In this document: positions 4,904-24,086 of the stretch, in pieces
How the letters are laid out: each line of letters starts with the position of its first letter
Numbering within the stretch: position 1 is the stretch's first letter
IMG/VR virus record: IMGVR_UViG_3300035698_010890
Location: 1 to 27,220 of that record
DNA length: 27,220 bases
From: a virus
Direction: 5' to 3' (one strand)
Notes under the pieces: generated by a model
Databases searched by the model: none
What the model was told of the DNA's origin: nothing
The model's input: the letters and a program-made list of their open reading frames with translations, nothing else
Made by a program: the position numbers and the translations under genes

Positions 4904-5085
4904 TAACCGGCGAGATTAAGGGCCCCGGCTGGGAGATGAAGTTCCAATCGGTGTCAGAAGAGGCCCTTTATACTCGTATCAGGGCAATTGCCCTTGAGCT
5001 CGTGCAGATCGCAGACGAAGAAGAAAGAAAGCTTGGCATTAAGCGCGGTGCTACGCTATTATATAGGGCGCCAGGAAAGAACTAG
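4900..5085 (+). CDS. Small hypothetical protein, 61 aa
   Basis: The GTG at 4900 overlaps the stop of the coiled-coil gene (GTGA). An internal ATG at 4936 has GGGAG too close for good initiation. The protein is mostly helical and charged (EEALYTRIRAIALELVQIADEEERKLGIKRG). No family is recognised. Confidence 0.55.
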   Translation: MITGEIKGPGWEMKFQSVSEEALYTRIRAIALELVQIADEEERKLGIKRGATLLYRAPGKN

Positions 5086-5094
5086 GAGGACCGA

Positions 5095-5313: not shown

Positions 5314-5317
5314 AAGA

Positions 5318-5497
5318 GTGGCCGGTTATAGCAATGTGCCATTCACGAATCTCGAGGACCATTTTAAGAACCGTAAGGGTATAGCTTCAACCCCGGATCG
5401 CCGGGAAAGGATAAAAAAGCGCCGAGATCGAGAGATCAGGCAGGGCACCGCGGAAGTGCTCGAACTACAAATCCAATCGGAGGAAACCGATGAGTGA
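5318..5497 (+). CDS. Small basic hypothetical protein, about 59 aa
   Basis: The frame is open from 5210, but a start there would overlap the preceding gene by about 100 bases. I prefer GTG 5318, just after the previous stop and with GGACGGG upstream; GTG 5261 is an alternative. The product has a basic helical segment (DRRERIKKRRDREIRQG) and an acidic end (LELQIQSEETDE). It overlaps the next gene by 8 bases. No family is recognised, and the start is uncertain. Confidence 0.45.
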   Translation: MAGYSNVPFTNLEDHFKNRKGIASTPDRRERIKKRRDREIRQGTAEVLELQIQSEETDE

Positions 5498-6110
5498 CGA
5501 ACCTTTAGACAACCCGTTTGCAGAAGACGGGACAGACGAATTTGCAAATCCGACCGAATACGATGAAAATGTGGCACGCAAGGAAGGCGAGGCTATCCAG
5601 TCAGACCTTGCCGAATCGGGTATTTTGTCGCCGAACCCGGCCGGGGGCGCCGCGGACATCCCGGAAGATCGGGTATCTCGTGCGGAAGCAGTTATGGACG
5701 GTGAATCGCCGTCGAACGCAGTCCCGCCTGGTGAAGCAGGGCGATTTGGCGCATCGGTATCCTCGGCGCGGAATCTGAAAGGTGATCGCGTGTCACTAGA
5801 TCAGAGTGAACTGGCCGGACTTATGGATCGGATAACCCTCCTCGAGTCAGCAGAACAACCGATAGGAGCTCCCACCCCTCCCAAAGTGGCCCCGGTGTCG
5901 GATATGCCGCTACGGTTTGTCCTGATGAACCATTACGGCGGGAAATACGCTTCTCGATCCTTTCGTACCCTCGAGGTGCTTAAAGGGTATGCACAGACGC
6001 AACCCGGAGAGAGCCGAATTTTCGCATATGAGAAATGGCCGCCCGAAGGCGATAGTATCGAGATGATGGAAATTACCGCACTCGGTCAGCGCGTGGCGAG
6101 GGGTGGCTGA
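5490..6110 (+). CDS. Hypothetical protein with disordered N-terminus, 206 aa
   Basis: ATG 5490 is preceded by GGAGGA. Residues 1-120 are acidic and rich in Pro, Gly and Ala, with little predicted structure; a short helix appears at LDQSELAGLMDRITLLES. Residues about 138-200 look folded: MPLRFVLMNHYGGKYASRSFRTLEVLKGYAQ then SRIFAYEKWPPEGDSIEMMEI, a pattern of beta strands around a helix. The stop overlaps the GTG start of the large terminase by 8 bases, so its product is made in step with packaging proteins. A packaging accessory protein is possible, but nothing proves it. Confidence 0.7.
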   Translation: MSDEPLDNPFAEDGTDEFANPTEYDENVARKEGEAIQSDLAESGILSPNPAGGAADIPEDRVSRAEAVMDGESPSNAVPPGEAGRFGASVSSARNLKGDRVSLDQSELAGLMDRITLLESAEQPIGAPTPPKVAPVSDMPLRFVLMNHYGGKYASRSFRTLEVLKGYAQTQPGESRIFAYEKWPPEGDSIEMMEITALGQRVARGG

Positions 6111-7725
6111 TACATACGAACTTTCCAGGCAAGACCTTGCTCGGATAACCGGGTACGCAGAGGCATTGGCGCGAAAGGGCAAGTCGAAAGCCGAGATACC
6201 TCGACTTGCCCATCGCCAATGGCTTCGATGGAAAGTAACTCACGATCTGTTCTTCTTTGGGTATGAATTCCTTGGATGGAAGAACGCAACAAACAAGTTC
6301 AAGACAAGAAAGCGCATGGACCCGGTGTTCCACCGATGGCTGTGCAAAATTATTTGTAAACCAAACGACAAACTAATTCTCGTCCCACGACTTCATCTGA
6401 AGTCTACATGGATAAAACTCCGGATCGTACAGTTAATCCTTCTCGACCCGAACACGAGAATAGGCCTGTTTTCTGCCACCGGGCGCCTTGTGGTGCAGCA
6501 TATGGCATGGATCAGGCGTGTTTTTGTGAACGCAAAGGTTCGAGAACTCTTTGGCGACCAAATTCCGGAACCCGGGAAGAAGTTTTCCGGCTGGGAGAAG
6601 GCAAACGAGAACGAACTTACGATATGGCGGGATCAAAGCCAAGAGCACGTTCCTTCCGAGCCTCAACTCTTCTGTGTCGGCGCCGGCGCTGAGATCACCG
6701 GACTCCACTTCGATTACGCCTTTCTCGACGATATTGTTACCGATCAGAACGTAAAGACGCAAAGTCAGCTCGAAGCAGTTGAGGATTGGTGGGAATATCT
6801 ATATCCGATCCTCGAGGTTGATTCAGAAAAGACTATCACCGGGACCCCGTACTTCTATCGAGACCTGTATAATCGCATACAGGAAAACGAGGAAATTCCG
6901 AAAGAGAACGTATATATCCGTCGCTACGAAGAAGAAGGCAAGATTATCTACTCTTCGTGGTATCGCAGGGCGGACTTCGAAAAGCTGAAACGAGGCATGA
7001 AGCCGTATAAGTTTTCATGCCAGTTTGAGATCAACCCTCTTCCAGACGAAGATAGGATATTCCCTCCAGAACAACCGCAGTTTGATCGGTTACCGATGGA
7101 TGAGCGCGGATACCGATATTACGCGCTCATTGACCCGGCCGCAACGCAGGAGTCGTATTCAGACCATACCGGCGTTGTTGTGATTGCCGTGAACCACCTC
7201 AACCAAGTATTTGTTATCGAGAGTCATAGCTTGAAGGAGCGGGGCGATAAACTCGCTGACTTCCTGATACGACGCCACTTACGGTATGGATTCAAGATGG
7301 TAGGTATCGAATTGGGCCTGCAGGCACATCTCGCTACCATTATTGATATGAGGATCGCTGACTATAAACGCGAAACTGGCGTTGACCTGCGAATCCCGAT
7401 GCAGTCAATACCAATCAAGAAACAGGACAAGGGCACGAGAATCGACACCATGATCGGATCGCTTGTAAGAACTGGGAGGATTCTTATCAATAGAAGGCTC
7501 ACGAACCTTATTGGGCAGATGGACAATTTTACCGGGCGAGATGGTGATGAAGACGATGAAATCGATGCACTTTCAATGGCCCCCTACGTGGTTGAGTCGT
7601 TCGCTGCGCATATGAATCTCCCGGAAGGGATACGAAGCGATGGCATGACTATTACAGAGTTTGTGGAGAAACATGGTACTCGAAGACGCAAGAAGGGTTG
7701 GAGTGGAAAGTTTAAAGCGGCATAA
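6103..7725 (+). CDS. terL: Terminase large subunit (ATPase and nuclease)
   Basis: This 540-aa packaging motor pumps DNA into the prohead and cuts concatemers. The ATPase domain shows a phage-type Walker A at about residues 94-102 (VPRLHLKST, with Arg in place of the first Gly). Walker B is at 206-210 (AFLDD) and a coupling motif at 244-249 (TITGTP). The RNase H-like nuclease shows the three expected acidic sites: D344 in YALIDPA, E403 in MVGIELG and D488 in DDEIDALSMAPY. The GTG start at 6103 overlaps the previous stop. Length is typical. It works with the small subunit (probably the gene at 2349) at the portal vertex. The 3' end overlaps a small zinc-ribbon gene. Confidence 0.95.
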   Translation: MADTYELSRQDLARITGYAEALARKGKSKAEIPRLAHRQWLRWKVTHDLFFFGYEFLGWKNATNKFKTRKRMDPVFHRWLCKIICKPNDKLILVPRLHLKSTWIKLRIVQLILLDPNTRIGLFSATGRLVVQHMAWIRRVFVNAKVRELFGDQIPEPGKKFSGWEKANENELTIWRDQSQEHVPSEPQLFCVGAGAEITGLHFDYAFLDDIVTDQNVKTQSQLEAVEDWWEYLYPILEVDSEKTITGTPYFYRDLYNRIQENEEIPKENVYIRRYEEEGKIIYSSWYRRADFEKLKRGMKPYKFSCQFEINPLPDEDRIFPPEQPQFDRLPMDERGYRYYALIDPAATQESYSDHTGVVVIAVNHLNQVFVIESHSLKERGDKLADFLIRRHLRYGFKMVGIELGLQAHLATIIDMRIADYKRETGVDLRIPMQSIPIKKQDKGTRIDTMIGSLVRTGRILINRRLTNLIGQMDNFTGRDGDEDDEIDALSMAPYVVESFAAHMNLPEGIRSDGMTITEFVEKHGTRRRKKGWSGKFKAA

Positions 7726-8027: not shown

Positions 8028-8292
8028 ATGCTCATGCGGCCACTCCTTCGACGAATTATACTCCAATAAGTACCCAAAGCACCGCAAATGTCCTATATGT
8101 GGAGAACAGGCTGTCTATGTATTCAGCGCCGTGACATTCAGATTAGACTTCAGGGACGGATGGGACCAAGGAGCCGGTGCGTATTTTGACTCTGCAAGAC
8201 AGAGGGACACGCACTTGGACAAGAACAATTTGGTGAAGGTTCCAGACGGAGCCTTCGACCAGGCGTTCGGGGAGAAAGTCCATGGCGGATGA
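8008..8292 (+). CDS. FmdB-like zinc-ribbon protein, 94 aa
   Basis: GTG 8008 is preceded by GGGGGGAT. The first 35 residues (VPLREYKCSCGHSFDELYS...RKCPICGEQA) follow the FmdB/CxxC ribbon pattern 'MPlYeY.C..CG..Fe......CP.CG'. Here the first knuckle is CxC rather than CxxC. The rest (residues 40-94) is not conserved to my eye and contains 'FDSARQRDTHLDKNNLVKVPD'. FmdB-like putative regulators are commonly found beside portal genes in phages, where their role is unknown. The stop overlaps the portal start. Confidence 0.65.
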   Translation: MPLREYKCSCGHSFDELYSNKYPKHRKCPICGEQAVYVFSAVTFRLDFRDGWDQGAGAYFDSARQRDTHLDKNNLVKVPDGAFDQAFGEKVHGG

Positions 8293-10141
8293 AGAAGGTA
8301 AACTTCCAGAAGAAATCCAACAGATAAAGGGATTCGTCGATAAGGTCTTCACTTCAGAAGAATACGAGGCTCGTCACAAGAAGATGAGAAAGTACATGGA
8401 CCTCTACAAAGGGGAGATGTACGACGAATCACTTCCAGACGAGGAATCTAAAATACAGGTCAATTATCCATTCTCCACCGTAGAAACTCTCACCCCCCTT
8501 CTTACTGATAATCGCCCGGTCTGGCACTATCGCGCGCGCGAACCGGTCTATCAGAATATGGCGAACCTGTTCAAGCTCGGGCTCGACTATCTATGGGATG
8601 AAATGAATATGGGCGCCGAGATTATCCCCGACGCTCAGAAACGGTGCCTTATTTATGACAACGGCATTGTAAAGGTGGCATACGATCCGGACAAAGAGGA
8701 CGTTGTCTGTGAATCGATCGATCCGGCAACATATGTTTGCGCCCCTGGATATGACGATAACTGGAAGGCCCCATGGCAGGGAGAGAAGGGCAGAAAGCCT
8801 ATGTCGTGGATCGCTGACAATTTCCCGGATAAACTTGACCTGGTAACCCCGGAAGGAGACGATCGGGGTGACAAGGGTTCGAGTAATTCCGAGAAATCGT
8901 TTTTCAAACAAGTTCATGAGTCTGTAACCGTCTACGAATTGTGGACAAAAGATTCAACTGTTATGAAATATTTCGAGACAGTAACCGACGAACAGGGCGG
9001 AGAGAAGAAAGAAGCCAAGTATAAAAAAAAGTATCCGAACGGACGGCTTATCATGTTTACCAGCACTTGCGTGCTCAGAGACACCGAAACCCCGTTCAAC
9101 TTTGGATTGCCGCCGTACGTATTCTTTTACGATTACAAAATCCCCGGTCAAATGTGGGGGATGGGTGAAATCGAGCAGATCGAGTATTTGCACAAAGAGA
9201 TCAATCTCCAGTTACAGGCTATCGTGAAACACTCGCGAATTTCCCACAATAAGAACTTTATTTATGACGAGACAGCAGGTCTCCCGGAAACAATCGCCGC
9301 CGACTTCTACGAAGGCGGGCATATTTGGCCAGCGTCGTTTACGAACTCCGATACACCGGTTCAGTCCATAGACCCAGGACCGATTGACCAAGCAATGCTC
9401 ACGCTCATGACTATTCTCCCGAATGCCATAGAAGAGGTATCCCAGGTAGGCGAGTTGATGAAAGGCCAGTCAGCAAAGAAAGAGCGGCAGTCAGCTTCAG
9501 AAATCTCGGTCATGATTGAGAGCTCGTATACTCGAGTCCGGCAGAAGGTCAGAAACCTCGAAGAATCGATCAGGCGCATCGCCGTGTTGGTGACAAACCT
9601 CATGCAGCAATTCTGGCTTGCTGAACGATATATTTCGGTTCGTGGCTCAGGAGCAGAAGGCCCCCAGCTTGACTATTTGCAAGTAGGGAGCAATAAGCGT
9701 ACCCTCAAGCAATCGAACACGCCTATGCGCGGAGATGAGGAAAACGACGAAGAGTACGAGGAAAAGAAAGCAAATGACCCGATGTGGCAAAAGACCCTCG
9801 AGCTTATCGAAAAGATAGGAGACAAGGATTCTGTCCAGTTCAAGGGCGATATTGAGATTCAAACGAACTCTACATTGCCAATGGACAAGCAAACTCTCGC
9901 TAATCTCTATTTGAGGCTTGCACAAATCAACATTACGTCCGATAGTATAGTAGATAGAAAGGCTGTCCTTGACGGCCTTGATGTACCAGATGGAGAGGCG
10001 ATCTTGGCAAGGCAACAAAAGGACCAGAAGCAGGCCGCAATGATGGCTCAACAGCAGGGCCAGGGCCCGCAGAGAAAGCCAGGGCCTGTTTCTCCTACAA
10101 TGGGTAATCAGATGATGAACCAAGGAGGGCCGCAGATATGA
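8282..10141 (+). CDS. Portal protein
   Basis: This 619-aa protein would form the dodecameric DNA channel at one capsid vertex and dock the terminase and adaptor. Features typical of P22-like portals include an acidic N-terminus, 'IQVNYPFSTVETLTPLLTDNRPVWHYRAR' near residue 60 and 'GIVKVAYDP' at about 132. The core signature 'YKIPGQMWGMGEIEQIEYLHKEINLQLQAIVKH' lies at about 284-316, followed by 'SASEISVMIESSYTRVRQKVRNLEESIRRI' for the long helix. The C-terminus is Gln/Met/Pro-rich (QQKDQKQAAMMAQQQGQGPQ) and likely disordered. ATG 8282 has GGGGAG upstream. The stop overlaps the ATG of the next gene. Confidence 0.92.
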   Translation: MADEEGKLPEEIQQIKGFVDKVFTSEEYEARHKKMRKYMDLYKGEMYDESLPDEESKIQVNYPFSTVETLTPLLTDNRPVWHYRAREPVYQNMANLFKLGLDYLWDEMNMGAEIIPDAQKRCLIYDNGIVKVAYDPDKEDVVCESIDPATYVCAPGYDDNWKAPWQGEKGRKPMSWIADNFPDKLDLVTPEGDDRGDKGSSNSEKSFFKQVHESVTVYELWTKDSTVMKYFETVTDEQGGEKKEAKYKKKYPNGRLIMFTSTCVLRDTETPFNFGLPPYVFFYDYKIPGQMWGMGEIEQIEYLHKEINLQLQAIVKHSRISHNKNFIYDETAGLPETIAADFYEGGHIWPASFTNSDTPVQSIDPGPIDQAMLTLMTILPNAIEEVSQVGELMKGQSAKKERQSASEISVMIESSYTRVRQKVRNLEESIRRIAVLVTNLMQQFWLAERYISVRGSGAEGPQLDYLQVGSNKRTLKQSNTPMRGDEENDEEYEEKKANDPMWQKTLELIEKIGDKDSVQFKGDIEIQTNSTLPMDKQTLANLYLRLAQINITSDSIVDRKAVLDGLDVPDGEAILARQQKDQKQAAMMAQQQGQGPQRKPGPVSPTMGNQMMNQGGPQI

Positions 10142-10536: not shown

Positions 10537-11364
10537 GTGATTTACGGAACCCATTGGGAACCATCAGGAAGTCGGGTGTTTTTGGCACCTGACGGAGCCG
10601 AAGGTGGGGAGCCCGCAGGGATTCAGGAACCCGAAATATCGGGGGAGCCTGAGACACCAGCATCATTCTATGATTGGACGGGCCCGGATGGACAGGTAAC
10701 GTCGTTCGGGGATCAGGAAGAGCTCGGGAAGTATCTGAGCGAGAGTACGTTGCGCCAAAGCGATTATTCGCGGAAGCATACCGAACTCTCAGAACGTGAA
10801 AAGTCGCTTTCGGAAAGAATGGCGACTCACGAAAAAGATGTTGCGTCTGTCAACAAATTGAAAGGGGATTATTCTTCTTTCAAGAAGGCGATGGATGAGC
10901 GACCTGAAATGTTCAACGAGTTTCGTCAACGATTGCAGCAACCGGTTTCGCCGGACGATGCTTTCGGACGGGCTCAGGGTTACACTGACGAGCGGTACGA
11001 TTCGCTCTCGGAGAAAGTGGAGTCTGTGCTTAAACGGCTTGATGATCGGGAAAGCTCCGATAGCCGGGCCAGCCTTATAGAGAGACTTTCTGGAGAGATC
11101 GATGGATTCGACGGCGAAAAGGTCAGTGCGTATCTGAAGAACATTGAGAACGAAGAACAGCTCATGAGAACTGCACACTTCGCAATCGCCGGCCAAAACC
11201 CTCCAGCGATCGATGCGCATGAGATCGCGAAAGCACAGAAAGAGGAAGGCGAGAGAGCCCGTGGAACAGTAAGCGGGGGCTCATCGACGCCACCTCCTGA
11301 GCCGACGTTCAAGACCGTCGAAGAGGCGCGGGCACACGCGCACAAAGTAGCGGGTTCGTCGTAA
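10537..11364 (+). CDS. Probable capsid scaffolding protein
   Basis: The 275-aa product is highly charged. It has a Pro/Glu-rich N-terminus, then long helices rich in Glu, Lys and Ser (SDYSRKHTELSEREKSLSERMATHEKDV; YDSLSEKVESVLKRLDDRE). A small C-terminal segment follows a Gly/Ser/Pro linker (PTFKTVEEARAHAHKVAG). This build, and the place between portal and major capsid gene, fits phage scaffolds, which guide shell assembly and then leave. The GTG start at 10537 follows AAGGAGGATAACGA. There is no protease motif, so scaffold removal may not need self-cleavage. Confidence 0.65.
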   Translation: MIYGTHWEPSGSRVFLAPDGAEGGEPAGIQEPEISGEPETPASFYDWTGPDGQVTSFGDQEELGKYLSESTLRQSDYSRKHTELSEREKSLSERMATHEKDVASVNKLKGDYSSFKKAMDERPEMFNEFRQRLQQPVSPDDAFGRAQGYTDERYDSLSEKVESVLKRLDDRESSDSRASLIERLSGEIDGFDGEKVSAYLKNIENEEQLMRTAHFAIAGQNPPAIDAHEIAKAQKEEGERARGTVSGGSSTPPPEPTFKTVEEARAHAHKVAGSS

Positions 11365-11379
11365 TCGCAAATTAGGAGC

Positions 11380-11396
11380 AGTCAGTGTCACTGACT
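11380..11396 (+). promoter_or_regulatory. Inverted repeat over the major capsid start codon
   Basis: AGTCAGTG-T-CACTGACT is a perfect inverted repeat. In RNA it can form a 7-bp stem with a 3-base loop that contains part of the GTG start codon (11385). The Shine-Dalgarno TTAGGAGC lies immediately upstream and stays unpaired. It could tune capsid translation. Confidence 0.45.
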
Positions 11397-12335
11397 ATTT
11401 CCGAAGCAAATACCACACAAAAGAAATTCTACGATCGGAAGAAACTCTCATATAACCAGGTCTATGAAGAAGACCCGTTTTTGAGCAAGTTGAAACGATC
11501 ACACAAAGTTACCTCTCGTGGTGGTAACTCGATTCAGTTCCCTATCAGATATCGCAAGTATGGTCGCGCAGATGCCACAGGGCCGGATGCGCAGATCAGA
11601 TTCGAGCGTAAAACGACTCGAACCGCAGGTGACGTTGATTGGAAGTACTACAATGTAGACTCCATGATAACCCAGGAAGAGCAGGTCAAGAACGACGGGG
11701 AACCGAAAGTGATCGACCTTCTCGGCGACAAAGAAGAGGAAATGCGTCAGGACCTTACTGACCGCCTCTCCACCGACCTGTATACCGCCAACCCCAACGG
11801 CTATGGCATGGATTCTCTGGCTACTATGGTAGATGCCGCGGCTACGTACGCCGGTCTCGCCGTTGCCGATGCGGACACGTGGTTATCGATAGCGGATTCA
11901 TCCACGACTCAACTCGTGCTTTATGGCACAAATTCCCTGTCCTACCTGATGAACTCGGCGACCTTCGGAAAAAAGAGACCGACGTTGATAAACACAACCC
12001 GGAATCTCGCGTCGAAGTTTGAATCGTTGATCGAACCGCAGAAACGATATGCTGACAAAGAGACGGCAAATGCCGGATTCTCGAATGTTACATTTCATGG
12101 CGTCCCGGTTGTTGGGAACCCCTTCGTGCCGTCCGCGACCATGTACGGCCTCTGCGTTGAAGACTTCGAGTTCCGAGTCAATCCAAACTTCGACTTCGAA
12201 ACGACCCCGTGGACCGACCTGTTTCAAGCAGGTTTCCCGTGGACCATGGGTAGGGTGATATCACTCGTATGTAACCTCATCTGCAAGATGAGACGCACCA
12301 GCTTCAAGGCGACTGCGTTTGATTACACCGAGTAA
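11385..12335 (+). CDS. Major capsid protein
   Basis: At 316 aa, placed directly after the scaffold, this is the expected shell protein. It starts at GTG 11385 with TAGGAGC upstream. The N-terminal arm (MSLTISEANTTQKKFYDRKKLSYNQVYEEDPFLSKLKRS) is followed by 'GGNSIQFPIRYRKYGRADATGPDAQIRF', the strand and loop expected for an E-loop. A long helix region follows (DKEEEMRQDLTDRLSTDLYT), then an A-domain-like end with 'TFHGVPVVGNPFVPSATMYGLCVEDFEFRVNP'. Similar proteins are annotated as phage major capsid proteins of the HK97 fold. I infer the fold from position and pattern, not from an alignment. Copy number should be several hundred per virion. Confidence 0.8.
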   Translation: MSLTISEANTTQKKFYDRKKLSYNQVYEEDPFLSKLKRSHKVTSRGGNSIQFPIRYRKYGRADATGPDAQIRFERKTTRTAGDVDWKYYNVDSMITQEEQVKNDGEPKVIDLLGDKEEEMRQDLTDRLSTDLYTANPNGYGMDSLATMVDAAATYAGLAVADADTWLSIADSSTTQLVLYGTNSLSYLMNSATFGKKRPTLINTTRNLASKFESLIEPQKRYADKETANAGFSNVTFHGVPVVGNPFVPSATMYGLCVEDFEFRVNPNFDFETTPWTDLFQAGFPWTMGRVISLVCNLICKMRRTSFKATAFDYTE

Positions 12336-12346: not shown

Positions 12347-12787
12347 ATGACACCCTTTGATCCAAGCACGACTCAATTGACCACGTTCGAGAAACGGTAC
12401 GACCAGGACGGGAAAGTATTCCTGCAGGCCGTAGCTCACGGTGCCCTTACGGCGAAACAACCGTATTGGATAATCGTCAACGAATACGGGCAGGTTACCG
12501 TAGCCCTGTCGGATATCAATGTGTACGCATACGTTGGCGTCCCGCTTGCGGCTGTTGACTCCGGCGATACCGCATGGCTCCAGATCGGCGGTTATCTCAC
12601 AGGCCTTATCACTGCGTCGCTCGACATTGAGGTAGGTAATGCGCTCAATATCACATCCGGCGCGGTTGCGGACTCGGCGGCAGATTATTCTGGCCTGGTC
12701 GCTGAATTCGCCGTAGCAGTAGTTGATGATGGAGCGGCTACTACTCAAACGGTAATGCTCGTACCCGAACGATTTCTCTGTAACTAG
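12347..12787 (+). CDS. Probable capsid decoration/stabilisation protein, 146 aa
   Basis: A strong AAGGAGGA precedes ATG 12347, only 11 bases after the capsid gene. The product is almost entirely beta-strand in character (YWIIVNEYGQVTVALSDINVYAYVGVPLAAVDSGDTAWLQIGGYLTGLITA), with alternating hydrophobics and Gly/Asp turns, and has no charged helices. A small beta protein directly behind the major capsid gene, ahead of a terminator, fits a decoration or cement protein made in large amount. The exact family is not identified. Confidence 0.6.
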   Translation: MTPFDPSTTQLTTFEKRYDQDGKVFLQAVAHGALTAKQPYWIIVNEYGQVTVALSDINVYAYVGVPLAAVDSGDTAWLQIGGYLTGLITASLDIEVGNALNITSGAVADSAADYSGLVAEFAVAVVDDGAATTQTVMLVPERFLCN

Positions 12788-12860: not shown

Positions 12861-13979
12861 ATGTCAGTAGCTTTAGCGAAAGAAACTGGCCTGATGGGAA
12901 GAAAGCTGACCGCGTACATGGCTCGCGGTGGTAAGTTCTGGACCGGGAGTTGTACGTTCGACTCTTCGTATCCGCTCGGTGGCGAATCTCTCGCCGCACT
13001 TCCTTTCACGCCTTCAGGTCTCGATATCAATCCTCGAGGTGGTTATATTCCGGAATGGGATAAAACCAATAACAAACTGAAACTCCTCACGCCTGGAGTT
13101 GACCTTATCGTCGAAGAAGTGGTTACGATTGCTTCGCATGTTGGAACGCTCAAGCATAAGCCGTTCTATATCTTGGCGGTTGAATCGACAGCGACTACCA
13201 CGACCGGCCCGTTCTCGGTAATCCCAGCCGGAGAAACGCCTCTCACCGTGCAATGTGCGGTGAACTTCGCTACGGGCGGACTCACGTTTGTCTCAACCGA
13301 CTTGGTAACCTCTGTTCTGGTGACCTATATCCCGCTTCACGAAACCGGGCCGTTCTCGAGCTCCAATCTCGTCATAGACGAGGCTGTTGTTGCGGCTATA
13401 GCAAAGACCGACCTCGCATACCAGGCCGCGGCCGTTCAGTACGTATGGGACGATACCGATACTATCATTGCCGCGCTCGAACCGGTAGGTGAAGCGCCCT
13501 CGGCTACCCATACCGCCGTTGTCGATATCGACGATGGAAGTAACGATACAAACATCGACTCTCATACCGATGATGAGGGGAATTCCCTCAAGGTTACGTA
13601 TATCAAATATGGAACCTTCCCGCCGTATTGCCTGTTGGGAGACGGCGATCTCACCTTGGCGTCGGAAATCTACAACTTCACCACGAACCACTATAACCAC
13701 TTGGCGATTCCTGGACTTGGGACTGCTTGTATTGGTGAAGCGACAGCAGACAACGTAGCTCTCATATGGTCTGGCCCATCTTCCAGTAAGGCCGCAGGGG
13801 TCCCGGTGCTCGACCTTGAACTCAATCAGTGGAGCATAGACGAAAGTTCCGCGGTTACGACTCTCGCGGTTCCCGTTATCTTCATGCCTCCGAATGCAAA
13901 CGGCGGGGCTATGATGGAAGCTCCGATCGGAGAGGACCTTTCTTCTATCATTATCGATATGCGCGCTTGGCAAATATAG
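12861..13979 (+). CDS. Virion structural protein, 372 aa
   Basis: ATG 12861 has AAGGAC 8 bases upstream. The N-terminal part contains 'FDSSYPLGGESLAALPF' and 'RGGYIPEWDKTNNKLKLLTPG'. This pattern, of the 'sYptGGe.l....y.....nKlk' kind, recurs in phage structural proteins next to capsid genes. The rest is beta-rich with many Thr, Val and Gly residues and a central HTDDEGNSLKVTYIKYG. There are no long helices or catalytic motifs. It may be a second capsid-surface or vertex protein. Position, after the first terminator and before the adaptor, supports a virion role. Confidence 0.6.
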   Translation: MSVALAKETGLMGRKLTAYMARGGKFWTGSCTFDSSYPLGGESLAALPFTPSGLDINPRGGYIPEWDKTNNKLKLLTPGVDLIVEEVVTIASHVGTLKHKPFYILAVESTATTTTGPFSVIPAGETPLTVQCAVNFATGGLTFVSTDLVTSVLVTYIPLHETGPFSSSNLVIDEAVVAAIAKTDLAYQAAAVQYVWDDTDTIIAALEPVGEAPSATHTAVVDIDDGSNDTNIDSHTDDEGNSLKVTYIKYGTFPPYCLLGDGDLTLASEIYNFTTNHYNHLAIPGLGTACIGEATADNVALIWSGPSSSKAAGVPVLDLELNQWSIDESSAVTTLAVPVIFMPPNANGGAMMEAPIGEDLSSIIIDMRAWQI

Positions 13980-14356: not shown

Positions 14357-15655
14357 ATGCTTCTGTCAGAGGCAATCACCGAAGTTCGAGAGAAGAGCCG
14401 CACGAGTGATGATTTCGTCACTGATGCGACGGTGGCGAATGCTATCGATGCGTCAATAAAAGAGTTTTTCACCGACGTTCGCGTCCTAATAAAGTACGCG
14501 CATCTCTCCCTTTCTCCGAAGTTCTGGACTCACGCAAGTATGGCAATCAACCTGACCATCGTTGGCGGGGCAAACGTACTTGTTGCAACAGATGTCGTCA
14601 TTACCGACTATTCCCGCGAGGGGGTGGCCGGTTCTGTCGTCGCGGCCGACTTGCAGGCCAAAATACGCGAGGCCGGCGCCACAACAGTATCGGTTTCGTT
14701 CTCGACTACAACTTGGAAATTCACGATCGACGCATCAGACTCGACCTCTATTACGATCGATAGCCCGTCGAACGATACCATATACGCAGACCCGATCGAT
14801 AACCTTCTCGGAAAATCAGGGACGCAATCAGATACCTCTTGGCTCGGGAATGTTCCGGAGGACTGTAACGTAGAGATAGACCTGCCTACAGACTTTGACA
14901 GGATGAAAGTTGTCGAGTGGGATCGGCGCCAACTCGCCGAAGCCCCGTATGACCTGTTCGTTTCTCCTCAATCGGCCGGACCTCCGATGTGTTATCAGGT
15001 CTTCAATAAGAGAATTAGGATCGCGCCGGTCCCTGACGAACAGGAATTGCTGCAGATCGTATATTTTTACCGACCTGAGACTGTGCGAGATTTCAAAGGG
15101 TATCAGGAGCTTGGATTTTCGAACGCAATCGATAGCCAGGCTTCAGGGCTTGCCGCTTCTACGCAATATTATTTCAAGGTCACAGCAAACGGCGGAACTG
15201 TAGTTGAATATGACATTACGACTGCAACGGTACTCACGATCGCTGCCGTCCTCGCGTTGATGAACACCGCGGCTACAGGGATATGCACGTTTTCCATGGA
15301 AGCCGGCGACATTAGGTGTACCTCAGACACTGAAGGTACCAGTTCTGCAATTGCTCTCGCCGTTGGGTCTACCGGAACCGATCTGTTCGCGACACTTACT
15401 GGATACTCAGCATTCGACACGGCCGTATCTGCATTGACTCGAGAGCTTGATATCCCTGATGAGGGAGAAGAGCCGGTTATCTACGGCGCCACGGCGAGGA
15501 TGTACGAAGCCGCCGCAGAGGAGAAGCGCGCAATCTATTATCACGGTCTCTCTCGGGCCCTGAGAATGGACTACAAGCGGAAAATCTTACAGCAGGATTC
15601 TAAGTACACAACGACCGCACAACGCGTAGTAAGTATCCCGTCGGTGACTATATGA
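14357..15655 (+). CDS. Head-tail adaptor/connector protein with two inserted domains
   Basis: The 432-aa product starts at ATG 14357 after CAAGGAGGA. The core matches phage adaptors that sit under the portal. It has an N-terminal helix pair (LLSEAITEVREKSR...ATVANAIDASIKEFF), a beta region at 170-245 (LPTDFDRMKVVEWDRRQL; YQVFNKRIRIAPVP; LLQIVYFYRP) and C-terminal helices (YGATARMYEAAAEEKRAIYYHGLSRALRMDYKRKI). Two stretches interrupt this core, at about residues 60-155 and 255-354. Each is rich in Thr, Ser, Ala and Gly, and each has a helix followed by beta strands, ending 'DNLLGKSG' and 'DLFATLTGY' respectively. Usual adaptors are about 150-230 aa, so the inserts roughly double the size. The stop overlaps the next gene. 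Confidence 0.65.
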   Translation: MLLSEAITEVREKSRTSDDFVTDATVANAIDASIKEFFTDVRVLIKYAHLSLSPKFWTHASMAINLTIVGGANVLVATDVVITDYSREGVAGSVVAADLQAKIREAGATTVSVSFSTTTWKFTIDASDSTSITIDSPSNDTIYADPIDNLLGKSGTQSDTSWLGNVPEDCNVEIDLPTDFDRMKVVEWDRRQLAEAPYDLFVSPQSAGPPMCYQVFNKRIRIAPVPDEQELLQIVYFYRPETVRDFKGYQELGFSNAIDSQASGLAASTQYYFKVTANGGTVVEYDITTATVLTIAAVLALMNTAATGICTFSMEAGDIRCTSDTEGTSSAIALAVGSTGTDLFATLTGYSAFDTAVSALTRELDIPDEGEEPVIYGATARMYEAAAEEKRAIYYHGLSRALRMDYKRKILQQDSKYTTTAQRVVSIPSVTI

Positions 15656-17592
15656 GACAGGCCTCTTTCGGCGACTTCAGCCGTGGATATGATTTACGTA
15701 CCCCTCACGAACTCATGAAGCCAGGCGATCTTACGAAAGCAGACAACTGCGTGTGGGATGATGAAGGTTTGGTTTCAAGGAAAGGACATGTAAGTTACAT
15801 CACGTCAGGGATTGGCGAAGACGATCAGATTAGAGGTTTTTCCAAACGATACTATTTGCGTGGCAAATGGGTTCAATTCATTGCTATTGACGACAACAGT
15901 GCCAGTTATGTCCTTTTTTTCGCACGCGACACAGTATCAATTTCCGCTCTTGGATCACAGTCGTATACGTTTACAACCGGGAATAATGTCCACTTTGCCG
16001 AGATAGACGGTAAGATTATCGCCACAAACGGCGTTGACCCTCCAATGATTATTACCTGGTCAGGGACACGGTGGGAAGGCGTCCGGTATGACACGGCCGA
16101 CACAAAGACTTGGGACGTAACTATTTGGGACGCTGGGCAATACTGGCCGGACACGTCGTATGTGGACGATACAACGGATGCGCAAAGCGATGATCTTCTC
16201 GATTTCCCGTTTGCTGGATCAACCAACATCGCCGGCTTTTGGGTTGCCTGCGCAAATCCCTTTACAAAGATCGTGCTTTACAACGCACAGCAATTAAGTA
16301 ACGTTTCTGCAATAACATATTCATATTGGAGTAGCGCCACTGATACGTGGGCGAATTTCACACCTACGACACCACTAGACTTAACTGCCGTGAATGGTCA
16401 CAGGACGGTTGAATGGGCATGTATTTCTGCTCTTAAACGATACGATGGAGACGAAGAAGCGATTCCTACGGGATATTATGTGATTCGAATAATAGTCGGG
16501 CAAACAGTAGACCAATCATATAAATACTGCCAAAAGCTCGAGATTTCGCATACCCATTATCTTTCTGAGGCGATAGGAGGTACCATCCCTCAGATTTGCA
16601 TTGCTCATAATAGCCGTATGTTTTTATCGGTAGACAATAAAGCATATTTTTCTCCACCTAACTCCATGTACAAGTTTCGAGGGGAAAGCGAAAGCGAATA
16701 TTTCCTCGAGGGCGGACCCCAGATACGCGCAATGGCTTCATACAAGAACATGCTGTTTGTCTTCAAGGATAGCGCGACATATGTGTTCTATGGAACAACT
16801 GTTGAGGATTTTTATCGAAAGAAAGTATCAGACTACGGGATAACATCAGCAACGGCTCTTGTCGTAACTGACGTGGGGATATTCTATCTCTCGGCAGACG
16901 GAATGCGAGTCACGAACGGAGATATAGATGTCCGGGTGTCTAACCATATCAACGACGAGTTGCTTGATTTTGATTCGTCAGAGGCTGTTGGAATCTATCA
17001 CAATGGCGTAGCCTACGTATCTTTCCCGAACGAAAGCACTGGAATCGTCTTACGATTCGATCCTGCAACGCTCGAGGTGGACGATAAAACCGGAGAGGGC
17101 CGCGTAGCCTTTTACAAATATACTGTATACCAGGCGAATTTCTACGTGTCTGAGAACGGAACAGGAGACACCGGGTTCCTGTTTTGTGCAAGTAACGACG
17201 GCGGCAACAGCGCATATATAGCAAAATTAGAATCCGTCCCATATGACACTCTTCGTGGAAGCTCCACCAAAAAAGCTATTTCCTTCGATGCGCGGACGCC
17301 GTATCTGTCTTTAGGGAATCTCGCGAAAAAGAAACGGCACGGGCGCCTTGTGCTTACGTTCATTGAGGGGTCGGCGGCGATAACGGCAACCATAGAGCTT
17401 GGAGCCGATAAGGGAGATCGGACGGTTTCCACTACCGTTATACTTGGGACCGATGGAAGGGACCATGTGTCAGAAATGAGAGCCCCCTACCAGATGGACG
17501 GACGGAGCATTAATGTTAAAATAACAATGTCGGCGACTGTGAAGTTTGGGTTTAGAGGCTTCGCGCTCGAGTATGAGACCATGGAGTTATAA
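15652..17592 (+). CDS. Tail nozzle/stabilisation-like protein, 646 aa
   Basis: ATG 15652 overlaps the adaptor stop. The N-terminus has 'DLRTPHELMKPGDLTKADNCVWDDEGLVSRKGH', a pattern seen in phage tail-hub and P22 gp10-like proteins. The body contains many short beta repeats, each with an aromatic, Gly and Asp turn. One is the stretch 'GPQIRAMASYKNMLFVFKDSATYVFYG', followed by 'VTDVGIFYLSADGMRVTNG' at about 360-425, as in beta-propeller nozzle proteins. In short-tailed phages this component extends the adaptor and forms the DNA exit tube. The place directly after the adaptor fits. There is no enzymatic motif. Confidence 0.6.
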   Translation: MRQASFGDFSRGYDLRTPHELMKPGDLTKADNCVWDDEGLVSRKGHVSYITSGIGEDDQIRGFSKRYYLRGKWVQFIAIDDNSASYVLFFARDTVSISALGSQSYTFTTGNNVHFAEIDGKIIATNGVDPPMIITWSGTRWEGVRYDTADTKTWDVTIWDAGQYWPDTSYVDDTTDAQSDDLLDFPFAGSTNIAGFWVACANPFTKIVLYNAQQLSNVSAITYSYWSSATDTWANFTPTTPLDLTAVNGHRTVEWACISALKRYDGDEEAIPTGYYVIRIIVGQTVDQSYKYCQKLEISHTHYLSEAIGGTIPQICIAHNSRMFLSVDNKAYFSPPNSMYKFRGESESEYFLEGGPQIRAMASYKNMLFVFKDSATYVFYGTTVEDFYRKKVSDYGITSATALVVTDVGIFYLSADGMRVTNGDIDVRVSNHINDELLDFDSSEAVGIYHNGVAYVSFPNESTGIVLRFDPATLEVDDKTGEGRVAFYKYTVYQANFYVSENGTGDTGFLFCASNDGGNSAYIAKLESVPYDTLRGSSTKKAISFDARTPYLSLGNLAKKKRHGRLVLTFIEGSAAITATIELGADKGDRTVSTTVILGTDGRDHVSEMRAPYQMDGRSINVKITMSATVKFGFRGFALEYETMEL

Positions 17593-17593
17593 T

Positions 17594-19003
17594 ATGTCTG
17601 ATATATTAGGGATAGATGGAATCCTGGCTAATCAGCCTCAAAGACCCAAGGAGCGAAGGTATGTAAACTATACCGGTGAGCAGTTCTTTACTCCAGAAAA
17701 CCAGCAGAACACAGCATACGCTCCATATGTGAGCCCATACCTCGAGGGAGGCGCGGATTACGGTACGCTTGCAGGAACCTATGCTTCGACTCCCGTTGTT
17801 CAAGGATACGAAGAGCTCGACCCGGACTCTGGCCAGTGGGCCTTTACCCTGGAGAAATCGCTATACGATGATGCACAGAATCTGCAAGAACTTAATACTG
17901 CTGAAGGCCCGGAAAGTTTCGACGATTGGATAGCCGATAGGCAAGAGTACGACGCGGAAGGGAATCTGGTATCGGGTCCGGAATATTTCGATGATATATT
18001 CTCCTCCGAGGCGTATACCGGGATGCAGGGTGTTATTGACGACTCCGCGGACATGGACGACGAAATGGCCGGCGCAGAAATGGCTGCTGCCGCTCGTCTT
18101 GGGTTCTTCGAAAAAGATGCAGACGGCAACACCCTCGTGGACGAAGACGGGAATCCTATTGTAGACATGGAGGCTTATCGCGATAGTATTGCCTCAGATC
18201 GAGAGCAGCTTGACAAAGGGGTGATGGGGCAGCAAGGGGTTCTTGGGACAGAATACGAAACTGCTTTCCATCGCAACACAGCAAGAACGGTTCAGCAAAT
18301 AATTAACGCGAATCAGCAACTTATCGAATCGCTGGGGATGCAGTCCTCTGCGGCCGCGTACATGAAGATGGGAGAAATCTCAAATCAGATCGCAGACATC
18401 AACGTGCAGGCAGGCTTTAAGCTCATGGAGCAAGACCTCCTGCAGCGAGAGGTTGAGTACGAGGCATTAGTCAGTCGATTTAACGCTACATCAATTATCG
18501 TGTCCGACGAACGGCAGATGTATATAGATGCTATCATGGACAATAGGGCAACGGCCCTCCAAGGATATGCTACGCAGGTCGCTTCGATGTTCCAGCAGAA
18601 CCAAAACGTGTTGACTGAATACGGTTCAGATCTCCAAGCGGCGCGAAACCATATCGATGCTGCGTATAAAAAAATCATGGCTTCGATAGGGTATGATGAA
18701 CACCTGATGGATCAGTCAAATGAGGCGTACGAGGCGAACATGGCTCCGTATTACGATGCGATGGAGGAGTGGTCGATTAGTCTAAATGCCGCTTTCGGAG
18801 TAGAGGAACTTGATCTTTCACAGCAGGACAGAGACGCGGCTGGCAACACAAACATTGCCTCTTCTTTGACCGATGCCGTTGCTTCGCTTGGAACTGGAGT
18901 CGGCGTCGGATTTGCGGTGGGAGGTCCGGCCGGGGCAGTGGTTGGTGGGGCGATCGGGCTTATCTTGGCAATTATCGGCGTGGGCTCTGCGGTTTCGGCA
19001 TAA
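17594..19003 (+). CDS. Probable ejection (internal virion) protein with glycine-zipper C-terminus
   Basis: The start is ATG 17594, with GGAG 8 bases upstream, giving 469 aa. The N-terminal 150 residues are acidic and Tyr-rich. Residues about 200-410 are long helices rich in Gln, Ala and Met (TVQQIINANQQLIESLGMQSSAAAYMKMGEI). The last 40 residues are hydrophobic and glycine-rich (GVGVGFAVGGPAGAVVGGAIG, then LILAIIGVG). Such glycine-zipper tails insert into membranes and are known in podovirus ejection proteins, which leave the capsid with the DNA and build a channel across the cell envelope. It is followed after 12 bases by a second large helical protein. The class call is by composition and position. 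Confidence 0.6.
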   Translation: MSDILGIDGILANQPQRPKERRYVNYTGEQFFTPENQQNTAYAPYVSPYLEGGADYGTLAGTYASTPVVQGYEELDPDSGQWAFTLEKSLYDDAQNLQELNTAEGPESFDDWIADRQEYDAEGNLVSGPEYFDDIFSSEAYTGMQGVIDDSADMDDEMAGAEMAAAARLGFFEKDADGNTLVDEDGNPIVDMEAYRDSIASDREQLDKGVMGQQGVLGTEYETAFHRNTARTVQQIINANQQLIESLGMQSSAAAYMKMGEISNQIADINVQAGFKLMEQDLLQREVEYEALVSRFNATSIIVSDERQMYIDAIMDNRATALQGYATQVASMFQQNQNVLTEYGSDLQAARNHIDAAYKKIMASIGYDEHLMDQSNEAYEANMAPYYDAMEEWSISLNAAFGVEELDLSQQDRDAAGNTNIASSLTDAVASLGTGVGVGFAVGGPAGAVVGGAIGLILAIIGVGSAVSA

Positions 19004-19015: not shown

Positions 19016-20386
19016 ATGGCATATAGCGACAGGAATCTTGGCGTTCGAAACAATATCTCGAGTCTGATCCAAGGGTTCAGACAAGGGGCCTCTCAACGCG
19101 CTGACCGTTCAGCCGGGCTTGCCGAGGGAGCCAGGAACAGACACGCGGGCAAACAGTCTCAGCTTCTTGACATGGCTTCGAAATTCGGAAGCCAGGTACA
19201 GCAGCAGAGCTTTGACAAAGAATCCTATTCGCCCGGGGGCCATATGTTCGAGTATGGCAAGGCCCAATCTGCTTGGGAACTCGAGGCGAATAAGGATTTA
19301 GCCGAATACAAAGAAGGGCTGACTGAGAAGGCGTATGGGCCTAATGGGGTTCAGCGAGACTATGCGGCATGGGCGGCAAGGCTCGAAGAGGCAGCTCAGG
19401 GGAGGCTTAAAGAAATACAGTTTGGGTACGACAAGGATTTAGCTGAGGCAGGGAGAGAGACGGCAGAAGAGCGTGCTGCCGATGCTTGGGCCAGCGAGGC
19501 CGCAAAGCTCAGGTTCTATACTGAAATGTATGAGAAGCATCCGGAAATGTTTGCAGCGATGTATGGCGCCGCAGACGAAGAGGGGGTAGAAGACGAGCAG
19601 CCGTTTGCTCCGTTCGATCAAATTGTCACTTGGACTAAGGAAATAGCCGACAGGCTGTCTGGCTTAGACACGAGAGAAGAGGTTATCGCAGAATTAGAAA
19701 CATTTATCGGGCAAAAGCTCTTGGGTAATGTTTGGAAGACCGGGGAAGCAGAGCTTCTCGAATCTATGATCCCGGGATTTGTCGATTGGGCATACGGAGA
19801 TGAAGTAGGATTGGTCGATCCTGCGACAACTGCCCACAGGGCTCTTGTGTTGCCGAATTTAGGATTCGGGCGGAGAATTAATAATGTTGTGAAAATCTTT
19901 ACAGCCGGGTTGGGGGCGGCTGGAATTGGAGATTCGGGACTCGTGACTCGTGCGATAGATAGGGCAAAGGCAGAAAACGCTGCGGCTGGAAACACTGGCG
20001 GAGTATCGCGCAGTTTCTCTGAGCCAGGCCCGGTTACAGTTCCGTCTTCTGGAGTTGATACTTTGGATCAAAGCATCGCTTCCGTGGTCAATCCATCTGA
20101 AGTGGTAGCCCATACTCTGCCCGCCGGGATCGGAAGTATAGTAGGTAGGGTACGTGATGTTGCAGAAGAAGTGGAGTATCCTGAATGGGCCGACACTCAA
20201 GTTGAAAAGATTCTGCATGATTACGTAAAGGACCTGACTCCGCAACAGCTCGAGTCTCAGGCAGGGGCTGACGCCAAAGGGAATCCCACGACGGTACAAT
20301 GGCAGATAGATATTGCGAAGCACACGCAGCAGTCGGATGAGGTTGTCAATAAAATCCTCAATCTAATAAAAAGCGCAACTCAGTAG
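19016..20386 (+). CDS. Probable second ejection/internal virion protein, 456 aa
   Basis: ATG 19016 has GAGGGG upstream. The first 60 residues are basic and Gln/Ala/Ser-rich (ISSLIQGFRQGASQRADRSAGLAEGARNRHAGKQ). A long helical stretch follows at about 80-180 with many Ala, Glu and Lys (ELEANKDLAEYKEGLTEKAYG; RDYAAWAARLEEAAQGRLKEIQFGYDKDLAEAG). The central part is acidic, and the C-terminal third carries 'HTLPAGIGSIVGRV' and a helical tail. No catalytic motif is visible. Its place between the glycine-zipper protein and the giant protein argues for a role in DNA ejection or as an internal core protein. No named family is recognised. Confidence 0.55.
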   Translation: MAYSDRNLGVRNNISSLIQGFRQGASQRADRSAGLAEGARNRHAGKQSQLLDMASKFGSQVQQQSFDKESYSPGGHMFEYGKAQSAWELEANKDLAEYKEGLTEKAYGPNGVQRDYAAWAARLEEAAQGRLKEIQFGYDKDLAEAGRETAEERAADAWASEAAKLRFYTEMYEKHPEMFAAMYGAADEEGVEDEQPFAPFDQIVTWTKEIADRLSGLDTREEVIAELETFIGQKLLGNVWKTGEAELLESMIPGFVDWAYGDEVGLVDPATTAHRALVLPNLGFGRRINNVVKIFTAGLGAAGIGDSGLVTRAIDRAKAENAAAGNTGGVSRSFSEPGPVTVPSSGVDTLDQSIASVVNPSEVVAHTLPAGIGSIVGRVRDVAEEVEYPEWADTQVEKILHDYVKDLTPQQLESQAGADAKGNPTTVQWQIDIAKHTQQSDEVVNKILNLIKSATQ

Positions 20387-20396
20387 GAGCCTATGA

Positions 20397-20987
20397 GTGC
20401 CCAACCCATTAGCGAGACTACCGGCCGGCATACGATCAATTAGTTCTCCAGTTCTCAGAAACGCTGTACGTTCGTCGGTTTCTCGTTACGATACGCTCCG
20501 CGGCCAAGAGGAAACTCCCGGACCTACCCAATCTCAACAGGAACTTATGCCGTACCTCGAAGAAGAGGCAAAGAAGGAAGCCAGGCGAAAGGGGCTTCTC
20601 CGACCGGTTGAGGTTGTTTTTGACATCCTGCAGCGCGGGCAATATCTCACAGCAAATGTTACGCAGACGATTATCGACAATATCCGTGGCGGGAAGCCGA
20701 TCGCACAGGGCTTATCGCGGGCTGTAGTCGGAGCCATCTCAGGGAGCATAAAAGGTGACTGGAAAGACGTTCTGTTTGGGGGCCCTGACGAGCAAGGACA
20801 AGACGTTCAGGGGTTGTTCGACTGGAGACCAGACACAAAGGGCGGAAAGTTCGCCAAGAATGTCGCTGGATTTGCGGCAAATGTTTTCCTCGATCCGACC
20901 ACTTATCTATCTTTCGGCTCGTCTAGTGCTGCGAAGCAGGCCGCTACTCGGTTTGCTGATGATGGCGTTATTGGCTTTGTTCGATAG
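20397..20987 (+). CDS. N-terminal part of a giant internal virion protein, ended by an in-frame amber
   Basis: GTG 20397 follows TAGGAG at normal spacing and opens a 196-aa frame that ends at TAG 20985-20987. The sequence has the features of the start of a much larger phage protein: 'LRPVEVVFDILQRGQYLTANVTQTIIDNIRGG', 'GAISGSIKGDWKDVLFGG' and 'AGFAANVFLDPTTYLSFGSS'. Large virion proteins I know of with such N-termini continue for many hundred residues. Directly after the amber the same frame stays open for 1,032 more codons, up to 24086, with no start codon for the first 60 bases. It may be a point nonsense mutation, a sequencing error or programmed readthrough. If no readthrough occurs, this fragment is made as a separate 196-aa protein. 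Confidence 0.6.
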   Translation: MPNPLARLPAGIRSISSPVLRNAVRSSVSRYDTLRGQEETPGPTQSQQELMPYLEEEAKKEARRKGLLRPVEVVFDILQRGQYLTANVTQTIIDNIRGGKPIAQGLSRAVVGAISGSIKGDWKDVLFGGPDEQGQDVQGLFDWRPDTKGGKFAKNVAGFAANVFLDPTTYLSFGSSSAAKQAATRFADDGVIGFVR

Positions 20988-21047
20988 CTCTCCAAAAACC
21001 CGAAAGAATTCCTTCCGGACCTAATCCGCAGAGGTATCGACGAGGAT

Positions 21048-24000
21048 GTGTTCAAGCAGGCAAGCAAACTCGGCGACATTGAGGCGCTTCAATACCTTCA
21101 GAAAGTAGCCGGCGACGACATTACCAAGATATACAGCCGTGTCCACCGGGAGCTCTACGAGAAGGCCCTCAGGTTGCCGAAGGGTGAGCTGACCGAAGAA
21201 TTGCAGAGCAAGATCATCAACGATGTTGCCGGGTTTGTGAAAAAGAACGGTCCTGAAAATCTCGCAAAGCCGACCCTTGGTAGAAAACTTCTCGAGACAA
21301 CCTCGATTGAACCGCGGAAATCGACACTTCCGTCTACCGATGTGAATGCCAACCAAGTAGTAGAGCCTATTCGATTCAATCAAGACCTTTACTCAGGCTC
21401 CGGCACCCGTGCATGGCGATTCATGCGCAAAGAGTTTGGCCTCAAAGAGAAGTATCCTGGCTGGCTCCGGCGTATGGACGAGGTGAAGCAGCAGTTAAAG
21501 AAGAGTAATGTTGGCGGGAAGTTCTCCGATGCGTGGTGGTCGTTCATGAACCATTCAAAATCGCCAGTTGCCACGCTTCGGAAGGCTCTCCGTATAAGGA
21601 ACCCGTACCAGAAACTTGTTTCGGTTATGGAGCGGGACGTTCAGGAACGTGCGTTTCATGAATTCTTGCTGGACGGCGAAGAAATAAACGCCGTCCTAAA
21701 AGGTCTGACTGACGAAGAAGCCAGGGCCGTTACCGGCGCAATGATGTTTTCTCAGGTTCAGCAAGAGAAGGCAAAGGTTGCGCGGGACGCTATCAAAAAG
21801 AAGTTCGGCAACGCAAAACCGCTTGGAGACCAGTATGCAGAGGCAATGAGGGCGCAGGCAGAAGGAATACAAGGACCAGTTACCCTCTCGGCCCGTGAGC
21901 TGGCACAAAAGTTTGCCCCTGAAGAATCGGTCGATAAGGTTGTGTCGGTGATTGACAGTATAAATAAAATCTCTGACGAATGGCTCCAGTTCAACCGTGA
22001 CGCATTCGATCGCAAATTATCTTCTAGTATCGGGGAATGGCAAGATTATTTGCCGATACAGTCGAATGTGGCGAGTGGATGGAATCGTGCCGGCAGACAG
22101 CTCGCGAGTATGCAGCCGTCATATACTCACACTCGAGAGCTCGGAGTCGGGCGCCATATGCAGCAGCAGGTCGAGAAACTTCGGTGGATGTTTGGAGAAG
22201 GGGTTTCTGACGAACAGATCGCCTCGGCTATCTCGAACAACTTCTCAGATCTAAATACGAATCTACAAGAAATGCTTACCAGACGCGCGTTCGCCCAGGC
22301 GCGATTCAGACAGCGCGTTCACTTGATCGATTCGTTCAAGCAGTTTGGAGTCGATGTTGGCGACATTCAGGATGTGAATCCGGAGCTCTACAACTCGATC
22401 GCCGGGAAATGGGGCGACCTGAGCATCTTGGGAATGGGCAAAGTTCAGGACCAAGCTCTCGAGGGAGTAATATTCGACAAAGATGTCGCAGACATATTCA
22501 ACCGCGCGATCCAGGTAACCAACGACGGGTCTTCATGGGACAAGATTGTCTCGAAGATTTCAGACTTCACATCATGGTGGAGAGGCTGGGCAACTCTTTC
22601 TCCCGGGTTCCATATGAGGAACTTCGTGTCAAACAATATGACCGGCTATCTAAAGCACGGAGTAGAATGGTTCGATCCTCAAACCTACACTGACGCCTTA
22701 ATAGTGACCCATGTTGCGCTCCATGGGAAAGAGAAGGCAATACAAAATCTCAGCAAGGCTTTCGGTGAGGATGTTGTTCAGGCAAGAATGGCGAGAAGGG
22801 TAGGAGACTACACGCTCGAGGAGCTTGCCGAGTACGCCGGGACAAAAGGGATCGCGACCAGGGTGACCCGCGGGTTCCATCAGCCGAAGAATTACGAAGA
22901 ACTCACGAAGGTTGAAGGCAGGATGTTTCAAAATGCAAACTGGAATCCGGCAAGCAGAACCTTCACTCCAATGGACGTGAGCCATTCTATCGGGTCATAC
23001 GTAGAGTCGTCCTCGAGGGTCCAGTCCTTCCTTCTTGATTTTAAGCGCGGGATTGCTCAAGGAGCCGATCAGCGTACGGCTCTCGAGTGGTCAAAACGCG
23101 AAGCAAAGAAATGGTTCATCGATTACGGTGACCTGTCAAAAACAGAGCAGGAAGGTCTCAGGAACATACTCCCGTTTTATACCTGGATTCGCGGAAACAT
23201 AGCAAATCAGCTTTCGGGCTTGGCAATAATGCCCGAGATGTATGGGACCGTAGCAAAGGGAATCCACGCGGCCGACACTGGAGAGGTGAGCAAAGAAGAG
23301 ATGCCCGATTGGGCGCGTGAGCTTGGGATGATCCCGGTAGGTCCGGCTGAAGACGATAAAACTCGATTCTTCTGGCCGAATTTCCCGATGTATGATCTGA
23401 ATAAAATACCACTTAGGTTCAGCGAAGAAGGTTTGCCAATACCGTACTTCTCTCGAGGAGCCGACATCATTACGGATATTGCCTCAGATTCACACCCGAT
23501 ATTAAAAACCGTCATAGAGGCTACAACAAATAAGGACGTATTCTACCAGAACGATATTGGAGAACTTGAGAAAGCCCCAAGGGCCTTGCGTATACTCACC
23601 GCTCCATTGCAAGCCGTCGGGGATCGGGCGCCACAGTCGGTTATCGAGCTCCTTGACGGGTTGCTCCGCCATGTAGGATTTGACCAGGGGATTCGTGCCG
23701 AAGTAGACGATAAGGGCCGGCTGCTTATGGACGGGAAGTTGGCAAAGGTCCTCGAGAACAACATCCTTATGCTTAACATGATCCCGAAGTATACCGACAT
23801 TATTGACGTGTTTGTTCCTGCCGTTGAGAAATGGAAGGAACGTACATTCGGAGCCGTTGACGACTACGATGCCCTCGAGGAGTTTTTCCAAGTCCTTAGT
23901 TTTTACGCAGGGATTAAGTTCAAGGACATCGATATAGAAGAATCTGAGTTTTACCGCAAGTACAACCTTACGAGGGAAGCTCAAGAGAAGAAGTCCCAAG

Positions 24001-24086
24001 CACAGCAACGGCTACCAGGGTCAGAACAGCGTTCTCTCGACTGGCGGCAGCAGCAGGAATCCACGTTCAGGAGACTTGGACTATGA
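21048..24086 (+). CDS. Large internal virion protein, main body (1012 aa, in frame with the upstream fragment)
   Basis: The first usable start after the amber is GTG 21048, with no convincing ribosome binding site, so this part may depend on readthrough. In order it contains a helical region with 'VVEPIRFNQDLYSGSGTRAWRFM' near residue 105 and 'LRKALRIRNPYQKLVSVMERD' near 180. The signature 'FTSWWRGWATLSPGFHMRNFVSNNMTGYLKHG' is at about 510-545, and 'WSKREAKKWFIDYGDLSKTEQEGLRNILPFYTWIRGNI' at about 685-720. These last two blocks (P.fH.RN..sN and ..fDY.dL...E...lr.i.PFYtW.r.N) recur in very large phage structural proteins. There is no protease or transglycosylase motif. It probably travels inside the capsid and enters the cell with the DNA. 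The stop overlaps the fibre gene start. Confidence 0.65.
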   Translation: MFKQASKLGDIEALQYLQKVAGDDITKIYSRVHRELYEKALRLPKGELTEELQSKIINDVAGFVKKNGPENLAKPTLGRKLLETTSIEPRKSTLPSTDVNANQVVEPIRFNQDLYSGSGTRAWRFMRKEFGLKEKYPGWLRRMDEVKQQLKKSNVGGKFSDAWWSFMNHSKSPVATLRKALRIRNPYQKLVSVMERDVQERAFHEFLLDGEEINAVLKGLTDEEARAVTGAMMFSQVQQEKAKVARDAIKKKFGNAKPLGDQYAEAMRAQAEGIQGPVTLSARELAQKFAPEESVDKVVSVIDSINKISDEWLQFNRDAFDRKLSSSIGEWQDYLPIQSNVASGWNRAGRQLASMQPSYTHTRELGVGRHMQQQVEKLRWMFGEGVSDEQIASAISNNFSDLNTNLQEMLTRRAFAQARFRQRVHLIDSFKQFGVDVGDIQDVNPELYNSIAGKWGDLSILGMGKVQDQALEGVIFDKDVADIFNRAIQVTNDGSSWDKIVSKISDFTSWWRGWATLSPGFHMRNFVSNNMTGYLKHGVEWFDPQTYTDALIVTHVALHGKEKAIQNLSKAFGEDVVQARMARRVGDYTLEELAEYAGTKGIATRVTRGFHQPKNYEELTKVEGRMFQNANWNPASRTFTPMDVSHSIGSYVESSSRVQSFLLDFKRGIAQGADQRTALEWSKREAKKWFIDYGDLSKTEQEGLRNILPFYTWIRGNIANQLSGLAIMPEMYGTVAKGIHAADTGEVSKEEMPDWARELGMIPVGPAEDDKTRFFWPNFPMYDLNKIPLRFSEEGLPIPYFSRGADIITDIASDSHPILKTVIEATTNKDVFYQNDIGELEKAPRALRILTAPLQAVGDRAPQSVIELLDGLLRHVGFDQGIRAEVDDKGRLLMDGKLAKVLENNILMLNMIPKYTDIIDVFVPAVEKWKERTFGAVDDYDALEEFFQVLSFYAGIKFKDIDIEESEFYRKYNLTREAQEKKSQAQQRLPGSEQRSLDWRQQQESTFRRLGL

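Follow-up and report, generated by a model that had tools for sequence, protein, structure and literature searches.

An in-frame amber codon in a long probable virion protein gene of a podovirus-like phage record

The interrupted gene and its neighbours

The sequence analysed here, which we refer to as the window, is an entire virus record of 27,220 bases, classed as a linear fragment, whose plus strand carries a module of structural genes. These comprise the terminase large subunit (6103-7725), the portal (8282-10141), a probable scaffold called by its position (10537-11364), the major capsid protein (11385-12335), an adaptor-like protein (14357-15655), a protein with a weak match to phrog_511 'internal virion protein' (15652-17592), a protein with a glycine-rich hydrophobic stretch at its end (17594-19003) and an orphan gene (19016-20386), relatives of which were undetected in any fetched locus while its neighbours on both sides had them. 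The interrupted gene described in this study follows, and is itself followed by a tail-fibre-like gene from 24083 onward.

The interrupted gene lies on the plus strand and extends from a GTG at 20397 to a TGA at 24084-24086, with a single in-frame stop, the amber codon TAG at 20985-20987, on the way; re-examination of the reading frame agrees with the first-pass annotation that this is the only stop in the interval. The first part of the gene (20397-20987) consists of 196 codons and ends at the amber codon, and the second (20988-24086), which opens with the codon CTC, continues in frame for 1,032 codons up to the TGA. There is thus one break in the gene, with neither indels nor a second stop. 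The GTG at 20397 is a credible start, well supported at the sequence level, because a probable ribosome-binding site, AGGAG (20385-20389), lies 7 nt upstream of it and because relatives begin at the same point, the homologues at loci L129 and L169 starting with MPN/MPF and similar residues at the equivalent position. The same AGGAG also precedes, with a spacing of only 3 nt, the ATG at 20393 of a 16-codon out-of-frame ORF (20393-20443, ending in TAG at 20441-20443) that overlaps the 5' end of the interrupted gene. As the 1,032-codon frame is in phase with the first part and homologous to other proteins over its full length, we consider a chance opening to be ruled out.

The gene order is that expected of a podovirus, and the interrupted gene, which is long and situated in the structural module after the portal, capsid and tail genes, occupies the position of an ejection protein. 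Its product is therefore probably an ejection or internal protein of a podovirus-like phage, in keeping with the label 'ejection protein' that it had been given from the outset, with gene order the source of this assignment of role. A Pfam search with the protein gave zero matches, its PHROGs matches were confined to families of unknown function, and PDB searches returned nothing useful and no match to a solved structure. The predicted structure of the homologue at L169 is helical and of low confidence (mean pLDDT 57), too poor for a fold search; residue 196 of this model, the equivalent of the amber codon, falls just past a predicted helix (176-195), a placement to which we give no weight. 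One account describes ejection proteins as necessary for infectivity (PMC8954989), and on that description a true null, once fixed, would be costly.

Relatives of the interrupted gene

Direct searches of viral and genome contigs with single window proteins gave no relatives, nor did a second scan of genome contigs, made with a profile. Close relatives were found in viral contigs using a degenerate PFYTWxRxN pattern and two alignment-profile scans, and are counted here as distinct contigs, with loci within one record merged. In 36 of 36 distinct contigs matching both halves, the two halves lie in one frame and are stop-free between, and a further nine of nine contigs are likewise unbroken, giving 45 relative contigs in total. 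An apparent in-frame TAA at L135 was rejected, as it sits before the ATG of that gene. The amber codon is missing from every relative found.

The closest relative found, record G007, encodes a protein of 1,164 residues with 46% identity to the window protein, and its gene is letter-for-letter the same in loci L169 and L181. The first half of the window protein (residues 44-196) matches G007 at 26815-27273 with 51% identity, and all 1,032 residues of the second half match at 27277-30180 with 43% identity, such that the gap between the two matches is exactly one codon, located at the amber. In a tree, the window groups with L169, then with L135, then with L133 and L134, all of which are unbroken. 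The other core genes align with those of G007 end to end or nearly so, and the break is therefore isolated. The residues found at the amber column in relatives are G, Q, T, N, E, A, S, L and V, and this variable position therefore tolerates change.

Together, the one-codon gap and the 45 stop-free contigs uphold the proposal that the sequence on both sides of the amber reads as one protein, and by this homology the two halves are one gene. The homologue alignment called for by the first-pass annotation returned one continuous protein in relatives with a variable, rather than conserved, amber column, and relatives encoding two separate proteins split at the same point were sought and not found. 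For annotation, this means that the record is best described as carrying one interrupted gene and not two successive proteins of 196 and 1,012 residues.

Homology extends, much more distantly, to large virion proteins bearing PGFHxRN / PFYTWxRxN-like motifs in named phages, namely Arthrobacter phage Jasmine gp29, Microbacterium phage Shocker gp37 and those of MW202795 and MW202803, which resemble one or both halves and occupy a similar place in the structural module, but differ from the window gene in being unbroken in every case. In isolate and assembled phages, the first half corresponds to N-terminal regions of single long proteins and the second half to regions further along. A single long protein of MW202795 matches both halves, the long proteins of Jasmine and Shocker match the first half clearly and the second weakly, and the second half is matched within long proteins of MW202803 and a Paenibacillus plasmid-like phage.

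Proteins of the PFYTWxRxN family are very common among viral contigs, with at least 120 loci (L009-L128), and uncut motif-bearing open frames range from 783 to 3,384 residues among the matches listed for the pattern scan. At L139 (8938-12640, plus strand), frame changes disrupt the second half of the homologous gene, the pieces being readable in other frames, so that breaks of this gene, whether real or technical, do occur in such contigs. At L132 (IMGVR_UViG_3300033149_003571; 4704-5681, plus strand), the homologous virion protein contains a 326-residue intein-like insert positioned exactly within the conserved motif, IPFY^TW, and matching LAGLIDADG_3 with an E value of 5e-4, slightly below the Pfam cut-off; L133 is without the insert and is identical to L132 at 1,173 of 1,191 residues outside it. 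Elsewhere in G007 (loci L188-L190), tandem gene copies are present at 17552-18440 and 19555-20571, where the counterpart of the 12347-12787 gene occurs twice and that of the 13990-14319 gene three times, against a single occurrence of each in the window.

The downstream half was also compared for its rate of change, expressed as the ratio of window-unique to G007-unique changes with L133, L134 or L135 as the outgroup. This ratio was 1.2-1.6 for the second half, within the range of 0.5-3.5 seen for control genes (1.3-1.7 for the genes at 14357-15655 and 15652-17592), and relaxed constraint downstream of the amber was not seen by this measure. The second half has no further stops and can be aligned over its whole length. 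As it has evolved like its neighbours, its constraint is intact, and its translation probably lasted until recently.

Interpretation of the amber codon

The reading that we favour, at a probability of roughly 0.86, is that a large virion protein is encoded here by one continuous gene which, in one assembled record, carries a nonsense change of a single base, private and recent, that could be either a real allele or a consensus error. The relatives are unbroken and have a sense codon at the amber column, the flanks align without a break, and a nonsense mutation or a sequencing or assembly error, both raised in the first-pass annotation, accordingly stay in the lead among the options that it offered. 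As written, the gene would be translated for 196 residues and then stop. Given that the downstream part shows no decay, the change, which we take to be recent, would have to be very young, absent from the real population (as a consensus error would be) or partly tolerated, by way of leaky termination or suppression in the host; if it is a real allele, the gene would be either defective or tolerated by one of the latter two routes. The closest parallel is a phage virion gene that is intact apart from an amber mutation, where there is likewise one in-frame stop, an open and conserved remainder and intact relatives. Unlike such known mutations, the stop here has been seen in one metagenome record, and a consensus error is for that reason possible. 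A point against a private defect is that a solitary break free of indels and other stops is also what a functional allele would show, and it is possible that the stop arose anywhere on the branch leading to the closest relative, at 46% identity, and is used by this lineage.

Such use could take the form of readthrough or host amber suppression, by which the phage would exploit or tolerate a short form of 196 residues and a long form of 1,229 residues. An intact and constrained frame past the amber and a column that accepts many residues are both consistent with this, as is the identity of the following base, since TAG followed by C is a comparatively leaky termination context in E. coli. An example of programmed stop-codon readthrough is the coat extension of the RNA phage Q-beta, where an upstream product is likewise extended in frame; in the window, by contrast, the arrangement is unconserved and has no recognisable signal, and the 'extension' would be most of the protein, leaving as the short form a mere small N-terminal fragment. 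Bacterial genes with in-frame stops that show signs of readthrough have also been reported (PMC7918605). Against this reading, a stop at the amber column occurs in none of the 45 relative contigs, the closest of which is 46% identical, and the RNA around the amber, examined in four folds, was no more stable than shuffled sequence in any (z -0.8 to +1.0). In addition, no tRNA genes were detected in the 27-kb window, in the relatives' loci or across the full 45 kb of G007, so that the search for a suppressor tRNA suggested at first pass came back empty over these sequences. Programmed readthrough, which had been listed among the initial options, is possible but is not supported by these results, and we regard readthrough or suppression in any form as improbable. 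As the relatives are all unbroken, a recent mutation of an ordinary kind, or else a consensus error, is a likelier source of the stop than a designed switch, and is most likely what it represents.

A more specific version, which we rate as very improbable, would have a lineage-specific amber acting as a leaky checkpoint in a standard-code phage, possibly with a suppressing host, such that most translation yields the 196-residue fragment and the few full-length proteins of 1,229 residues set the copy number. If readthrough did prove true, a virion protein of a dsDNA phage would be regulated by stop-codon leakage without recoding of the genome, which would be unusual.

It is also conceivable, though highly unlikely, that the gene has undergone a lineage-specific split into two proteins, the second being made by reinitiation at GTG 21048 (21048-21050), about 60 bases past the stop. 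This codon is the first in-frame ATG, GTG or TTG past the amber, in line with the 60 bases lacking a usable start noted at first pass; the first-pass view of its ribosome-binding site needs qualifying, in that an RBS-like GAGGT does precede the GTG, at a poor spacing of 12 nt. This candidate restart is thus in frame but poorly signalled. Moreover, no start codon is conserved at this position in relatives, the sequence that separates the GTG from the stop still aligns with and resembles that of relatives, and none of the 45 relative contigs is split. With unbroken relatives and no conserved start, the split was rejected.

The weakest alternative, that TAG encodes an amino acid (e.g. Gln, as in code 15) across the phage or its late genes, can be dismissed as having a negligible probability. 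Like code 15 phages, including the crAss-like phages and phAss-1, the window has a structural gene with TAG in frame, and several relatives have Gln at the amber column. However, known code 15 phages have many in-frame TAGs, phAss-1 having TAG in 41 ORFs together with three suppressor tRNA genes (PMC10607447), whereas the window has a single in-frame TAG among 6,934 codons, in which Gln codons number 304. Roughly half of the phages predicted to use code 15 carry a suppressor tRNA (tRNA-CTA) gene (PMC11210395); none was found in the 27-kb fragment or in relatives. TAG, moreover, still terminates genes: besides the interrupted gene, five plus-strand genes, several of them structural, end in TAG (4161, 5085, 12787, 13979 and 20386), as does one minus-strand gene (1141), so that the gene ends listed at first pass are all borne out, with 5085 in addition, as is its view that general reassignment is unlikely. 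Were TAG read as sense, the gene at 12861-13979 would be lengthened by 88 codons and that at 4900-5085 by 75, in each case over the next genes. The TAG at 12787 sits at a conserved C-terminus, the capsid-neighbour gene at 12347-12787 ending where its homologues in L136 and G007 end with TAA, and judged on these gene ends and codon counts a general reassignment of TAG can in practice be ruled out.
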